From: a virus
Strand: one strand, 5' to 3'
IMG/VR virus record: IMGVR_UViG_3300034279_001199
Coordinates: 1 to 36,138 of that record
Length of the DNA: 36,138 bases
Below the pieces are notes generated by a model. The model was given only the letters and a program-made list of their open reading frames with translations. It searched no databases and was not told the DNA's origin. Shown here piece after piece: positions 5,334 through 27,760 of the stretch (position 1 is the stretch's first letter; every line of letters starts with the position of its first letter). Made by a program: the position numbers and the translations under genes.

Positions 5334-6907
5334 GCGTGGAGCCCTCGCCGAGCCATGCCGTAACCCGGATCGGGGCCAGCGAACGATCGCGCGAGTCGAG
5401 GCGCGCCGTCGACGACAAGGTAGGTGGGCGCCGCTGCGGGGGCTTGGCCTGCGTTCGCGCGGTTGATGCCCTCTTGGCCGCCGAGCGCGCGCATCGCCTG
5501 AGCGGTGAGTACGGCGGTGCTTTCGTTCTGGCGCGTCGTCATGCCGGACTGCGCGATCTCGTCGGGGAGGATTCCACCGCGGTGGAACTTGGGCTGCTGA
5601 GCTGCGATGAGGCCGATCTGCACGGCACCAGCTGCACCAGCAACGGCAGCAAGCGCCGCGCCAACCGCGATCGGAGGGATCGTCAGGTTCGACGCGATGG
5701 CCTGAAACATCGAAATCGTAGCCGACGCGATGGCCGCTGCTTTCTCAATCGCAAACTGCTTTTTCTTCGCGCGCCTCGTGTCTTGCTCGGTGCCTCGGAT
5801 GATCGCGTTTCCGATGCCGAGCACGATCGTGGCAAAGTTGGCGGCCGTACCTGCCGCCACGTTGAGGTAGCTTGACCACTCGCCGGCCACTTGCTGCGCG
5901 GTCTTCTTCGCACTCTCGGCGCGCGCCGTGTCGAGCGCGATTAGCGGATCCTCTTTGAAGTCGAACTCCTGCATGCGGAACCCGATCCCGCCCATCTCCC
6001 CGCCGAAGGTCTGCACGCCCTGCTGTGCGTCCTGCGCCCCCTGCGGCTGCGCATGGAACGCGGCGATGTTGGCGGCGTCTGCGCTGGCCTGCGCGCTACG
6101 GGCAATGTCCCGTTCCATGAGCGCGTCGAGCGCGGCGCTTTCCTCTTCAAGCCTGCGCGCGCGCTCCTCTGCGGCCTTCGCGGCGGCTTGTGTCGCGGCG
6201 GTGTTTGTCTGCACGGCGGACGTGTGCGCCTGCGTCGTCTGCGTCGTCTTCTGCGCCGCGACCCCGGCGGCCTGCATCGCGTCGTAGATCTCCTTGGCCG
6301 CCTTCGTCGCGTCCTTGCCCGCTTGGTCGAAAGACCAAGTCCGAATCAAGCTTTCGACGTACTCCAGCGCATAGGCCGTACCCATCAAGAACTTGCTGAC
6401 AGTCGGGGCGATCCTGACGGCAATCTCTGTTGCCCACCCGCCCATCTGCGAAGACAGCGCGGTCATCGCGGCAGACGCCTGCTCAAGCGCGAGCACGTCA
6501 CCAGAGGAGATGATGCCCCGGTTTTGCAGGCTGTTCAGCGAGTCGCGGTAGCTCTCCACGTTCTTGAAGACGTCGAAGACCGCGGCACCGATCTTGACAA
6601 ACGCGCCGATAACGAGCCCGGCGCCAACCGCCATCGTGGCTTGTTTCTTGCCGACCCGCTCAATGAGGTCGCCGTAGTCATCGAGCGGCCCGGTGATCGC
6701 GCTGAACGATCCGCCGGTTGCGTTGTTCACCTTGTTTAGGTCGCCAAGCCGATCGCTTAGGCTGCGGGTCGTCTTGCTGGCTTCGGCCGCAGCGTCACCC
6801 GCGGCGCGCTCGGCGGTGGCCAGCTTCCTCGTCGCAGCCTCCGCCTTCGCGACACCTGCGACATAGCCGGAAACGTCGGCATCAAGCTTGATCGTTTCGC
6901 CGGCCAT
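5330..6907 (-). CDS. tail tape measure protein
   Basis: 525 residues. It starts MAGETIKLDADVSGYVAGVA, typical of tape measure proteins, followed by Ala/Lys/Glu coiled coil (about residues 15-55 and 200-290), a hydrophobic C-terminal stretch around residues 400-435 (AAVAGAAGAVQIGLIAAQQ) and the common PKFHRGG ending motif. It measures tail length and is threaded through the tube. At roughly 0.15 nm per residue the tail would be short, about 80 nm. It overlaps the small chaperone ORF by 26 bp upstream and the tip gene by ATGA downstream. No sheath gene is present, so the tail is non-contractile. Confidence 0.85.
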   Translation of the reverse strand: MAGETIKLDADVSGYVAGVAKAEAATRKLATAERAAGDAAAEASKTTRSLSDRLGDLNKVNNATGGSFSAITGPLDDYGDLIERVGKKQATMAVGAGLVIGAFVKIGAAVFDVFKNVESYRDSLNSLQNRGIISSGDVLALEQASAAMTALSSQMGGWATEIAVRIAPTVSKFLMGTAYALEYVESLIRTWSFDQAGKDATKAAKEIYDAMQAAGVAAQKTTQTTQAHTSAVQTNTAATQAAAKAAEERARRLEEESAALDALMERDIARSAQASADAANIAAFHAQPQGAQDAQQGVQTFGGEMGGIGFRMQEFDFKEDPLIALDTARAESAKKTAQQVAGEWSSYLNVAAGTAANFATIVLGIGNAIIRGTEQDTRRAKKKQFAIEKAAAIASATISMFQAIASNLTIPPIAVGAALAAVAGAAGAVQIGLIAAQQPKFHRGGILPDEIAQSGMTTRQNESTAVLTAQAMRALGGQEGINRANAGQAPAAAPTYLVVDGAPRLARSFAGPDPGYGMARRGLHA

Positions 6908-17894: not shown

Positions 17895-18347
17895 TCAGAG
17901 GTCGTCAGGTACGCCAGCGTCCTTGTCGCTCCTCTCGGCCAGCACCTCGGCGATCTTCGTGCGAAGGTCGACCTGCACCGGGCCGCCTTCGGGGCCGCTG
18001 AGCTCCAGCCGCTCACGTGCGCACTCATCGATTCGATGCGCCCCAAGCCACGCCTGCGCCGCTCGCCAGTCGCCGCCGAGCGCGGCCTTTGTGCGCACCG
18101 AGACCATCGCCTGCGCGATCTTGCTCTTGGCTGCGCGGACCTGTGCGGCAAAATCGGCAAAGCGTTGCTCACCGGAGTCGGCGCGCGCGATGTAGTCATG
18201 CAGCGTCGTCACGCTGATACCTGCACTTTCGCACGCCAGCCGGTCAGAGCACCCCATGCGGATCGCGTCACACACCGCCTTCGTCATCGCGTCGCTCAGC
18301 ACCAGCGGGCGACCTCGTGGGCGCTTCGACTCCCGGCGCTTAGGCAT
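17895..18347 (-). CDS. terS: terminase small subunit
   Basis: 150 residues. The ATG at 18347 is chosen because GGAGGCGGCCA stands directly upstream; longer in-frame starts run into the tRNA-like sequence. The N-terminus is a basic arm (MPKRRESKRPRGRP) followed by a helix-turn-helix (DRLACESAGISVTTLHDYIA), the DNA-recognition pattern of small terminases, then long helices for ring formation and an acidic end (ERSDKDAGVPDDL). It recognises the packaging site and stimulates TerL. Four small genes separate it from terL. It overlaps the mom-like stop by a few bases. Confidence 0.8.
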   Translation of the reverse strand: MPKRRESKRPRGRPLVLSDAMTKAVCDAIRMGCSDRLACESAGISVTTLHDYIARADSGEQRFADFAAQVRAAKSKIAQAMVSVRTKAALGGDWRAAQAWLGAHRIDECARERLELSGPEGGPVQVDLRTKIAEVLAERSDKDAGVPDDL

Positions 18348-19122
18348 TGGCCGCCTCCGCATGGAGCGTCGGGGTCGGATTCGAACCGCCAATCTCCGGC
18401 TGGACACCGGAGCCCTCCACAGGCCGACGCGCGCCACGGTACATCCGGACTTCATCCGGGATGCTTGCGAAAGGTATCACCGGAACCGTCAGGCGGCTCG
18501 CCCACGTCGGGTCGATGAACCGGACATAGCGCAACTGGTAGCCGGGCAGCGGGCGCGCACCGGCAGCAAGGAACGGCGCCAGCGACGCCCCGCCGCCGAT
18601 GTCGACGCCGTACCGTTTGCCTGCTTCGATTCGGGTCGCCTGACCGGCCGTGGTCAGGCTCTTGGCGGTCGTCACGAACCCATCCGGGAAGCGCACGATC
18701 TGCCCGTTTTCCTTGATCCCTGTCAGCACGAACCCGCTGGCCCGGTAGATCGTCCCGTCGCCGCACTGGCACCCATCGGCGAACGACACGCACCACTTCA
18801 CCTGCGGCGCCTGCTTTGCGAACATGCGGAAGGCGATCGCCAGCGCGCGGGATTCACTGTTGCGCGGGAGGGCCTCGTCGAACGCCATCCTGTTCAACTC
18901 GATCACGCTTTCCCACGGCGCGTCACGCACGAGGGGCAAGATCTTGCGGCGGTCGAGCGGCGGCCCGAACTGCATGGCGCCGTGCAGTCGCCCGCCGATA
19001 AAGGCGCCGAGGCTGATCTGGCTGTTCTGGACTACAGACCCCGAGTAGTGAACGCGCTTCACGATGTCGTCAGCGTCCCGCCGGGTGATGGGCCGGATCT
19101 CGATCGACTTCGCGTCACCCAT
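18340..19122 (-). CDS. mom: Mom-like GNAT-fold adenine DNA modification enzyme
   Basis: 260 residues from the ATG at 19122, preceded by GAGG and overlapping the ParB-like stop by 8 bp. Family marks: H-Y pair in RVHYSGSV (residues 25-26), LHGAMQFGPP (46-55), IELNRMAF (74-81) with SESRALAIAFRMF after it, and WCVSFADGCQCGDGTIYRASGF (110-131). Together these match the GNAT-related Mom family, whose Mu member adds a glycinamide-type group to adenine N6 and blocks restriction. The last ~35 codons are unusual: they coincide with a tRNA-like sequence, and the translated part (IGGSNPTPTL) is what a T-arm reads as. Whether those codons matter to the protein is unknown. No Com-type translational regulator gene was recognised. 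Confidence 0.8.
   Translation of the reverse strand: MGDAKSIEIRPITRRDADDIVKRVHYSGSVVQNSQISLGAFIGGRLHGAMQFGPPLDRRKILPLVRDAPWESVIELNRMAFDEALPRNSESRALAIAFRMFAKQAPQVKWCVSFADGCQCGDGTIYRASGFVLTGIKENGQIVRFPDGFVTTAKSLTTAGQATRIEAGKRYGVDIGGGASLAPFLAAGARPLPGYQLRYVRFIDPTWASRLTVPVIPFASIPDEVRMYRGARRPVEGSGVQPEIGGSNPTPTLHAEAANA
18362..18430 (-). tRNA. compact tRNA-Gly(UCC)-like sequence inside the mom-like gene
   Basis: 69 nt ending in encoded CCA. The acceptor stem is a perfect 7 bp (GCGUCGG with CCGACGC). The anticodon arm is a perfect 6-bp stem (CUCCGG/CCGGAG) around loop UGUCCAG, giving anticodon UCC. The T-loop is canonical UUCGAAU on a stem of GGCGG with CCG-A-CC, one bulged A. The main bacterial glycine identity bases are present: G1-C72, C2-G71, U73, C35 and C36. 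Odd points: position 33 is G instead of U, there is no 8-9 linker, and the D-arm shrinks to CCU-GUGG-AGG. So it could be charged with glycine yet be poor at elongation. It lies wholly within the mom-like reading frame, same strand. It may instead be a decayed tRNA or an old attachment-site relic. Confidence 0.55.
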
Positions 19123-19741
19123 GGAACGCCTCGGCGATGCGTGCGAGCGCGTTTCCGTTGCGGTTGGTGTTGCCGGTGCCCACGAACGGCCCCGCGTCGA
19201 TCGCGTCGCGTAGCGCCGCTTCGACCCGCTCGTGCTGGTCATAAGTCAGCGTGAAAGTCATCTGCCGGAACTCGGGAGCGCCGTCCGGCAGCGCCGCGAA
19301 GGGGTCCTCCGGCGTCGCGCAATCAGCCTTACCGAGAATCGCATTAAGCTCGTCAGCAGACCACCCGAGCCCGTCGAGCGCGGTCTGCTCAGCGTCAAGC
19401 GAGCGCATGACCTCGGCCAGCCCCTCCTCATCCCACGGCGTGATCTCGCTCAGCTTGTTGTCCGCCAGCGCGAGCGCCTCGGCCTGGGCTTCGTCGATGT
19501 CGAGGAAGCGCACCGGCACCTCAGCGAGCCCGAGCTTCTTGGCGGCCTTCCAGCGGGTGTGTCCCGCGATGATCTGCCGGTTCTCCAGCCGCGCGATGAT
19601 GGGCGAGCTGAACCCGAAGCGGCGGATCGACTCGGCCACGCGGTCGACCGGTTCGCCGTCGTTCTTGCGCGGGTTCTTCTTCCACGGCTTGAGCGACGCG
19701 ATCGGCTCGTAGGTCGCCGCTGGTTCGCTTTCGCTGGGCAT
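19115..19741 (-). CDS. ParB/sulfiredoxin-fold nuclease-like DNA-binding protein
   Basis: 208 residues from the ATG at 19741, with GGGAGGTGAGA just upstream. Residues about 12-85 are a ParB N-terminal domain: LKPWKKNPRKND, VAESIRRFGFSSPIIA and the IIAGHTRWKAAKKLG motif. An Asp/Glu-rich helical region follows. Such proteins often stand next to phage terminase and DNA-modification genes; they bind or nick DNA, and some hydrolyse CTP. It opens the late operon and precedes mom and terS. Its exact task is not known. It is transcribed divergently from the early genes at 19880. Confidence 0.8.
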   Translation of the reverse strand: MPSESEPAATYEPIASLKPWKKNPRKNDGEPVDRVAESIRRFGFSSPIIARLENRQIIAGHTRWKAAKKLGLAEVPVRFLDIDEAQAEALALADNKLSEITPWDEEGLAEVMRSLDAEQTALDGLGWSADELNAILGKADCATPEDPFAALPDGAPEFRQMTFTLTYDQHERVEAALRDAIDAGPFVGTGNTNRNGNALARIAEAFHG

Positions 19742-26172: not shown

Positions 26173-26549
26173 GGCGACACCTCGGCCACCAGCAGCACGT
26201 AAGGCGCCGCCAATCGAGCATCGCCTCCACGCTCGCGCATCTCCGCACACAGGCGGATCGCGTCGTCAAGCGTCGAAGGGCGAGCGGTGTACCTACCGCC
26301 GACCCACGTCCAGCCGTGCGGCTTCGCGGGCGCGGAATCGGGCCGCTTGTCGCTCGGGTCGGTCGCGTCGGGGTCGGAGCGGACGGCCGCGATCGTCTCT
26401 ACGGACTGGATCGGCAGCGGCTCGGGGAGCCGGCCCATCTCGGCGTCGATCAGGCGTTGCACGGCTTTGCTCAGCGGAAAGCCGTTGGCGCGCACCCAAG
26501 CTACGCGGTCGGCTCCTACGCTGGCGGTGATCAGGTCTGGTCTGGTCAT
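26169..26549 (-). CDS. hypothetical protein
   Basis: 126 residues from the ATG at 26549, chosen because it overlaps the methyltransferase stop (ATGA). N-terminal MTRPDLITASVGADRVAWVRANGFPLSKAVQRL could be a ribbon-helix-helix-like DNA-binding start; a Pro/Asp-rich linker follows, then a helical end with RLCAEMRERGGDARLAAPYV. It is coupled on both sides. Function unknown. Confidence 0.6.
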   Translation of the reverse strand: MTRPDLITASVGADRVAWVRANGFPLSKAVQRLIDAEMGRLPEPLPIQSVETIAAVRSDPDATDPSDKRPDSAPAKPHGWTWVGGRYTARPSTLDDAIRLCAEMRERGGDARLAAPYVLLVAEVSP

Positions 26550-27739
26550 GGGGATCCCCATCGGTGGTCTGATATTTCGGGCATGGTGGCTCCTATGAAG
26601 ATCGCCGCGACTTGCGGGACGATCGCGTTTCCGTAGCCGCGAAGGCTTCCTTTGCGGCTTCCTGCCATTCCTCGGGGTAGCCTTGCAGCCAGCGGGGCAG
26701 CTCCACGTTGAGTTGGCCGCAGGTTTCCATCTGAGCAGGCGATCCAGTCGCAGTCGCTCCAAAAGCCTGGCGCGGGACAGTGTCCATTCTCGGGCGGCCG
26801 TCCTGTCTCGTCATCGACGTTGACAGATCCCCCGTGTCCTTCCAGTCGCGCGTTGCCGGCGTTGCCCAGCCGCTCGCCAGCCGCGCTTGGCCTGGCAGTT
26901 TCAAGAACACCGGCCGCGACCCGTCCGGCTTCACCGGCCCGTAGCAGTGGGTCGATCCCGTCGCGTCGTTCACGATCGGGGTTGACCAGCCCACCAGCGC
27001 CGCAACCGCTCCGAGATCCGGCCCATGCCTGCGCATCGCCTCGCGAATCGCGCCCTCCTCTGATCTGACGCCCTTCTCTGCCAGGCTGGCGGTCGGTGTC
27101 GGCCACCCACAGAGCGCCGGAACCGCCTGCCCCGGCGTCATCCCGAAGCCGTTGTTCCCGTTCTTCTGCTGGAGCTCTGCACGCCGCTCCAGCACCCGCC
27201 CCACATCCCGCGCCTCGAACGCGCTCGCGTCCGGCGTCGGCCAGCCCGACCCAGAACAGCCGTTGTCGGATGTGCGGCGCCCCGACGCCCGCAGCGCACA
27301 GATCGGCGGCCCCGACGGCATAGCCCACGTCTTCCAGGTCAAGGCGTACAGAGGCGAGCCAAGACCGGCCAGCCGCTGACGCAACCTGCTCTCCAAAGAC
27401 CGCTGGAGGTCGGCGCTCGCGGATGAGCTCAGCGAAGACGGGCCAGAGGTGGCGCTCGTCTGCGGTGCCGAGCCCTTTTCCAGCCGCGCTAAACGGCTGG
27501 CAGGGGCAGCTACCGGTCCAGACGGGGCAATCGTCAGGCCATCCGGCGAGGCGCAACGCAACGCTCCACCCGCCGATGCCTGCGAAGAAGTGGCATTGGT
27601 CGTAGGAAACAAGGTCATCTGGACGAACATCGGCGATGCTCCGCTGGTCAACGTCGCCCGGCGCGATGAGCCCGCGAGCGATCAGGCGACGAAGCCAGGC
27701 CGCCGCAAACGGGTCGATCTCGTTGTAGTAGGCGGCCAC
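26546..27739 (-). CDS. DNA cytosine-5 methyltransferase
   Basis: About 397 residues from the GTG at 27739 (VAAYYNEIDPFAAAWLRRLI, the typical family start); an earlier GTG at 27751 is possible. Motif I FFAGIGG (residues ~51-57), catalytic motif IV SCPCQPFSAAGKG with Cys near 80, motif VI as GEQVASA, motif VIII HIRQRLFWVG, and the terminal motif X RGYGNAIVPQVAA. The middle target-recognition part is Gly/Arg/Asp-rich and repetitive. All catalytic motifs are in one frame, so the enzyme should be active and would protect phage DNA from host restriction. It is upstream-coupled to the 26169 gene. Confidence 0.9.
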   Translation of the reverse strand: MAAYYNEIDPFAAAWLRRLIARGLIAPGDVDQRSIADVRPDDLVSYDQCHFFAGIGGWSVALRLAGWPDDCPVWTGSCPCQPFSAAGKGLGTADERHLWPVFAELIRERRPPAVFGEQVASAAGRSWLASVRLDLEDVGYAVGAADLCAAGVGAPHIRQRLFWVGLADAGRERVRGAGCGAGAGAACRAPAEEREQRLRDDAGAGGSGALWVADTDRQPGREGRQIRGGRDSRGDAQAWAGSRSGCGAGGLVNPDRERRDGIDPLLRAGEAGRVAAGVLETARPSAAGERLGNAGNARLEGHGGSVNVDDETGRPPENGHCPAPGFWSDCDWIACSDGNLRPTQRGAAPLAARLPRGMAGSRKGSLRGYGNAIVPQVAAIFIGATMPEISDHRWGSP

Positions 27740-27760
27740 GCTGCACCCCACGCAGGTCTA

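Follow-up and report, generated by a model that had tools for sequence, protein, structure and literature searches.

The window, the whole stretch of DNA analysed here, comprises 36,138 bases (IMG/VR virus record IMGVR_UViG_3300034279_001199, positions 1 to 36,138). On its minus strand, a ParB-like gene is followed by mom and the terminase small subunit gene; the genes for the terminase large subunit and the portal come farther along, and a tRNA-Gly-like RNA element lies inside the 3' end of mom:

17895 to 18347, minus strand: terminase small subunit gene, overlapping the mom stop (PHROG 4102, E 1e-16; likely start ATG at 18347)
18340 to 19122, minus strand: mom gene, 260 amino acids (PF25680, E 4e-42; fold match to 8BV8, Z 22)
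19115 to 19741, minus strand: ParB/sulfiredoxin-like gene, overlapping the mom start (PF02195, PHROG 620; inferred start codon)
18362 to 18430, minus strand: tRNA-Gly-like RNA element, 69 nt, compact form (model R1, 56.1 bits, E 9.5e-12)
18424 to 18430, minus strand: acceptor stem 5' strand GCGTCGG, with G1 and C2, pairing perfectly with 18366 to 18372
18394 to 18412, minus strand: anticodon-like hairpin CTCCGG TGTCCAG CCGGAG, with covariation in relatives
18402 to 18404, minus strand: UCC at the glycine-anticodon position, with C35 and C36 (C35-C36 in 61/62 relatives)
18373 to 18390, minus strand: T-arm GGCGG TTCGAAT CCG-A-CC, the bulged A being 18375 (bulged A in 62/62 relatives)
18366 to 18372, minus strand: acceptor stem 3' strand CCGACGC, pairing with 18424 to 18430
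18362 to 18365, minus strand: discriminator U73 and encoded CCA (relatives: U73 62/62, CCA 47/62)

The ORF at 18340 to 19122 scores 144.6 bits against Pfam PF25680 (cut-off, 27.1) and matches PHROG 1384, 'Mom-like', at E 4e-43. Its AlphaFold model (pLDDT 88) has phage Mu Mom, 8BV8, as its top PDB match (Foldseek E 2e-18); in VIA the two align at Z 22.0 over 198 residues with an rmsd of 4.1, and the next best match reaches Z 14. The matches ranked below Mu Mom are ordinary acetyl-CoA GNATs, and no Fem or other aminoacyl-tRNA transferase is among the 50 best structure matches listed, where absence carries no weight. Ser91 is invariant across the Mom alignment and is the equivalent of Mu Ser124, the site of the S124A mutation in 8BV8, which is labelled 'inactive'. 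Judged on sequence and predicted fold, we assign this ORF to the Mom family as a true member. The terminase small subunit gene is a neighbor outside the Mom/RNA system. The ParB/sulfiredoxin-like gene may be a component of it; such a gene is often found next to mom, and it lies immediately ahead of mom, or of what remains of mom, in the window (19115-19741), in Psychrobacter phage Y8A (L009 5397-6008), in phiEf11 (L386 990-1511), and in an Anaerococcus prophage relic (L155 158-445). At 26546-27751 the phage also encodes a DNA cytosine methyltransferase-like protein (PF00145, residues 75-171), its second enzyme for DNA modification.

An initial annotation had placed a 69-nt tRNA-like sequence at 18362-18430 on the same strand inside the 3' end of mom, and both its coordinates and its strand proved correct. 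Read 5' to 3', the element is GCGTCGG CCTGTGGAGGG CTCCGG TGTCCAG CCGGAG ATT GG-CGG TTCGAAT CCG-A-CC CCGACGC T CCA. The sequence confirms the 7-bp acceptor stem, the 6-bp hairpin presenting UCC, and the encoded CCA that the annotation described, along with U73, G1-C72, C2-G71, C35, and C36, which together make up the bacterial GlyRS identity set. It likewise confirms the departures from a canonical tRNA, with G33 in place of U33 and no normal D-arm; a further departure, the bulged A in the T-stem, was overlooked and is invariant in the family. Standard tools overlook it in the window: ARAGORN made no tRNA call for the element, the best Rfam match was tRNA-Sec below threshold (16.9 bits, E 0.5), and single-sequence folding was unremarkable (z -1.8), so that the window alone is weak evidence. 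The originally noted combination of features occurs once in the window, whereas 120 composition-matched Markov windows contain it 0 times. No second copy of the element was found elsewhere in the window, and the exact 3' half used as a pattern found no match in IMG/VR.

Relatives supply what the single sequence lacks. The first seven from IMG/VR and Psychrobacter phage Y8A follow the same plan in other letters, at or just past the mom stop, with acceptor pairs such as GCGCCCG/CGGGCGC, GCGCATC/GATGCGC, and GCGCGCG/CGCGCGC, each followed by TCCA. A degenerate pattern for the 3' half occurred in at least 119 IMG/VR stretches and 56 GTDB contigs, and the 7-bp acceptor stem was fully paired in 173/183 occurrences; pattern matches in L136 (Yersinia) and L164 were random, lacked stems, and were discarded. 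Because sequences found this way are selected by the pattern, we trained a covariance model, R1, on 30 of them, keeping the window's own sequence out, and ran it on loci picked independently of the RNA. R1 scores the window element at 56.1 bits (E 9.5e-12), and this comparative evidence is what we regard as decisive for it. Among 79 window-like IMG/VR loci fetched through Mom protein similarity alone, 77 have a match at the 3' end of mom on the same strand (E 7e-17 to 1e-4). In 301 Chloroflexota genomes, R1 matches lie directly upstream of mom for 10 of 11 strong Pfam Mom matches (E below 1e-40), and none of the 10 weak ones (E above 1e-20) carries the element.

The pattern-found set agrees. 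A mom ORF was present in the fetched piece for 159/182 elements, on the same strand in all 159, and many of the remaining 23 are truncated by contig or piece ends. The search for tRNA-Gly-like sequences beside other mom genes that the initial annotation proposed found them widely. Standard tools see little of this family: ARAGORN labels 22 elements or their neighbors as tRNA-Gly, most copies tested fall below the Rfam RF00005 threshold, and no matching RNA family was found in Rfam. BLASTN of a long-form element against phages gave weak matches only, those listed being mostly annotated tRNA-Ala genes. We consider it all but certain that this is a conserved tRNA-Gly-like RNA functionally linked to Mom.

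The 77 protein-sampled matches comprise 62 distinct sequences, which formed the conservation set. In these, 94.5% of cells are paired, compared with 69.7% in shuffles and 34 to 46% when the structure is slid, and double-changed cells number 302 versus 82 in shuffles, with double changes at 19 of 21 pairs, in an R1-fitted alignment that biases such counts toward the model. An earlier MAFFT alignment of a differently chosen set gave the same picture (91.4% paired versus 68.8%). The anticodon hairpin was placed by structure-based alignment, as best pairing alone often chose the D-arm. Covariation, the 77/79 and 10/11 linkages, and the shared strand in 159/159 bear out, at the level of sequence, the proposal that the RNA and Mom are one system; the outcomes named beforehand as speaking against it (no covariance with tRNA models, absence beside other mom genes, stems left unpreserved) were checked, and none occurred.

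What is held constant is informative. U73, G1-C72, C2-G71, and the bulged A are each present in 62/62 copies and C35-C36 in 61/62. Position 34 varies among A, U, and C, all four bases (G, U, A, and C) occur at position 33, and 47/62 copies encode CCA. GlyRS identity bases that never change, next to a position 34 free to vary and a CCA that need not be encoded, form a signature of selection for glycylation; a protein-coding or purely mRNA-regulatory role would predict no such invariance. The Mom tail encoded by the element is predicted to be disordered (pLDDT under 50), so the constraint acts on the RNA. On these grounds the earlier impression that the element looks chargeable is upheld, and the RNA is very probably charged with glycine. 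The companion claim that it is poor for translation also stands: the loss of U33, a T-stem bulge in the EF-Tu-binding region, and the frequent loss of the D-arm across the family all argue against use on the ribosome.

The position of the element relative to mom differs among clades, with some having it at the 5' end and others at the 3' end, past the stop, or over 1 kb away. Where it is at the 3' end, mom reads through the whole element in 96/117 cases, 83 of them in one frame (GGxxPTxxLH), and the mom stop falls inside or before the element in the other 21/117. Where it is at the 5' end (Chloroflexota, Bacillota, and others), the reading frame of mom likewise stays open across the element, and in 49/57 cases mom has no in-frame start codon except ahead of the element or within it. 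In-frame nesting, at either end of mom, is usual. A tRNA gene nested in frame means that one transcript can yield Mom or the RNA, hardly both, and such an either/or transcript may act as a brake on a toxic enzyme. In one Dehalococcoidia MAG (L139 7770-7920), the element sits in frame at the end of a ParB-like ORF instead of mom.

Across the family, the arrangement is not uniform. In the Mom tree, 3'-element rows, the window among them, cluster in a single well-supported group, 5'-element rows occur in several deep groups, and most Mu-type Moms are among the element-free rows; the 5' rows were found by pattern, so their frequency in the tree is meaningless, and for Chloroflexota the Pfam sampling provides it instead. 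Mu-type loci lack an R1 match in 78/80 cases. The two exceptions, whose Moms are 68 to 69% identical to that of Mu, have a canonical tRNA-Gly(UCC) gene just upstream of mom that ARAGORN calls, and these are the only tRNAs in the 38 Mu-type loci scanned. The 382 kb of Mu-type loci otherwise contain no R1 match even at E 10, so the false-positive rate of R1 is low. Distant marine Moms (about 30% identity) include five loci with a tRNA-Gly-like gene about 90 to 150 nt upstream. These genes (L361, L362, L363, L368, and L373) are of a second type, which has a normal T-arm and loops like TGTCCAG but does not encode CCA. In Salinibacter phage B2_17, an annotated tRNA-Gly lies 33 nt past mom (R1, 84 bits); there (L190 3049-3660), mom is apparently split over two frames, and the tRNA-Gly ends in TCTA rather than TCCA. 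The tRNA-Gly genes beside Mu-type, marine, and B2_17 Moms point to independent recruitment.

Among isolated phages, no R1 match was found in Mu, JD024, PAN70, pAEv1818, Sorpresa, phiSA_BS1, a Salmonella phage, Phynn, or an Enterococcus phage, DSL-LC03 and PMBT69 have weaker matches only, distant from mom, and the element is absent from six further isolated-phage Moms. A tRNA 1.2 kb upstream of mom in phiEf11 is tRNA-Asn and was not counted. Because Mu and most Mu-type Moms lack the element, Mom chemistry does not depend on a private RNA. Psychrobacter phage Y8A (L009, OQ059336) has tandem elements at 6662-6729 and 6734-6802, in the interval that separates mom from the terminase gene; its other mom, far away at record positions 39405-40049, lacks one. 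The authors who described Y8A ran tRNAscan-SE and reported that it had no tRNA genes (PMC10434257). Elements also occur without mom. The Anaerococcus prophage relic (L155 158-1599) consists of a ParB-like gene, an element, and a terminase-like gene with mom absent, and the genome that carries it has no Pfam Mom. Acidophilic Bacillota MAGs hold solitary strong elements (L137, L140, L151, L156, L169, L174, and L183), and most of these genomes are without a Pfam Mom. Elsewhere, two mom-like ORFs lie in tandem within one phage at L043 4729-6071 (minus strand), as they do at L033 1111-2416 (plus strand), and in Microbacterium phage Lupine (L381 1474-3597) the genes after mom encode a polynucleotide kinase and an RNA ligase, which together often serve tRNA repair.

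We propose, with a probability of roughly 0.7, that the element serves the Mom system as its own, non-proteinogenic tRNA-Gly and that Gly-tRNA is the glycine donor of Mom. The modified base of Mu is purin-6-yl glycinamide, according to the title of Swinton 1983 (cited in PMC3874153 and PMC4461284). This base amounts to adenine plus 57 Da, one glycine residue, and a glycyl-tRNA ester is an activated acyl donor of the right composition; Fem enzymes already use glycyl-tRNA as a glycine donor outside the ribosome (PMC2045680). From a conserved, structured RNA that keeps the glycine identity set, is linked to mom, and is nested within it, we infer a route of processing, charging, EF-Tu avoidance, glycine donation, and rearrangement. 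The mom transcript would include the element, which would fold and be freed by host tRNA-processing enzymes, the host adding CCA where it is unencoded. Host glycyl-tRNA synthetase would read U73, G1-C72, C2-G71, C35, and C36 and charge it, while the bulged T-stem, the often missing D-arm, and altered positions 33 and 34 would hold it off EF-Tu and the ribosome. Mom, with its GNAT fold, would transfer the acyl group of the glycyl ester to N6 of a DNA adenine. The new alpha-amine would then attack C6 through a five-membered spiro intermediate (a Smiles-type rearrangement) with release of the amide nitrogen, converting N6-glycyl-adenine to the isomeric purin-6-yl glycinamide known from Mu; the glycine nitrogen would become N6, and the original N6 of adenine would become the amide nitrogen. 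Nesting would let each transcript give Mom or its tRNA, possibly limiting a toxic enzyme. Moms that lack the element need host Gly-tRNA or some other donor, and phages such as Mu would draw on the former. We also lean, somewhat less confidently, toward the broader view that Mom family-wide, including in Mu, is an aminoacyl-tRNA-dependent DNA glycyltransferase, that many phages encode a private, nested, non-translating tRNA-Gly for it, and that the rearrangement swaps the nitrogens.

Several observations count against the donor reading: Mu and most Mu-type loci lack the RNA, the next structural neighbors of Mom are acetyl-CoA GNATs, strong elements occur in Mom-less genomes, and published proposals are CoA based. 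One from Karambelkar in 2020 reportedly uses acetyl-CoA with iron, and a review suggested glycyl-CoA as the donor (PMC7824862).

The strongest alternative, which we nevertheless consider unlikely, is that the element mimics a tRNA in order to regulate the mom transcript that carries it: binding to GlyRS, or cleavage by RNase P, would control mom expression, and no glycine would be donated. Folding or cutting of an element inside the coding sequence would touch the mom mRNA, and mom was termed a lethal function needing special control in the title of Kahmann 1985 (cited in PMC4461284). However, the element lies at the 5' end in some clades and at the 3' end, beyond the stop, or more than 1 kb off in others, it keeps a full glycine identity that a mere cleavage site would not need, and separate canonical tRNA-Gly genes take the place of the element at other Moms. 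Less probable still is that the RNA binds Mom in some other way, as an inhibitor of a toxic enzyme (resembling a type III toxin-antitoxin system) or as a substrate that Mom modifies. Tight genetic linkage and Mom toxicity are compatible with an inhibitor, but neither role needs the joint retention of U73, G1-C72, C2-G71, and C35-C36, and one GNAT precedent for action on charged tRNA, the TacT toxins, is a toxin rather than a DNA modifier. An ordinary phage tRNA-Gly aiding translation is very improbable: tRNAs are common in phages and ARAGORN does label those 22 elements or neighbors, but U33 is unkept, the T-stem bulge is invariant, the D-arm is often missing, and the element is nested in a coding gene and strictly linked to mom rather than to tRNA arrays. 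Chance resemblance, a tRNA fossil, or an attachment site, in line with how little standard tools and single-sequence folding reveal, has a negligible probability against an R1 E value of 1e-11, covariation, 77/79 linkage, and no other copy in the window. Covariation, linkage, and unfit tRNA features led us to reject chance, an attachment site, and a translational tRNA.

A dedicated tRNA-Gly for Mom would bear on a donor question that dates to the 1983 description of the base and for which the published guesses are CoA based. The element lets that question be tested directly, with one RNA, one enzyme, and labelled glycine. To our knowledge, no earlier DNA base modification takes an amino acid from tRNA; if true, this would be the first, tying the translation apparatus to phage DNA protection, and confirmation would establish tRNAs as a possible source of the chemical group protecting viral DNA. 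Independently of the donor, the element represents a widespread RNA family absent from Rfam and mostly overlooked by ARAGORN, and a tRNA gene in frame within the gene of the enzyme it probably serves. No paper describing such an RNA or linking Mom to a tRNA turned up in the journal literature searched, which took in only a minority of subscription titles and no preprints; an earlier report may exist outside it.

Compared with known systems, the Mom protein belongs to a known family, and the new part is a DNA-modification system with a dedicated tRNA-like RNA. Phage Mu Mom (PF25680; 8BV8) shares family, fold, and invariant residues with the window Mom, including the mutated Ser, and converts adenine to N6-carbamoylmethyl (glycinamide) adenine. 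Mu has Com and lacks such an RNA near mom or anywhere in its genome, whereas the window has the nested RNA and a ParB-like neighbor. Canonical bacterial tRNA-Gly (RF00005) shares with the element the cloverleaf plan, U73, G1-C72, C35-C36, and CCA; the element differs in its bulged T-stem, its lack of U33, its reduced D-arm, and its nesting in a protein gene. L/F-transferase and TacT toxins combine a GNAT-type fold with an aminoacyl-tRNA substrate, but their targets are proteins or the charged tRNA itself, not DNA, and neither is among the 50 best structure matches listed, an absence without weight there. Staphylococcus has a dedicated non-proteinogenic tRNA-Gly unfit for translation, which sits outside the enzyme gene, in contrast to the nested window element. 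The FemABX peptidoglycan glycyl transferases likewise take glycine from glycyl-tRNA (PMC2045680), with a cell-wall precursor as the acceptor where the window system's proposed acceptor is DNA.
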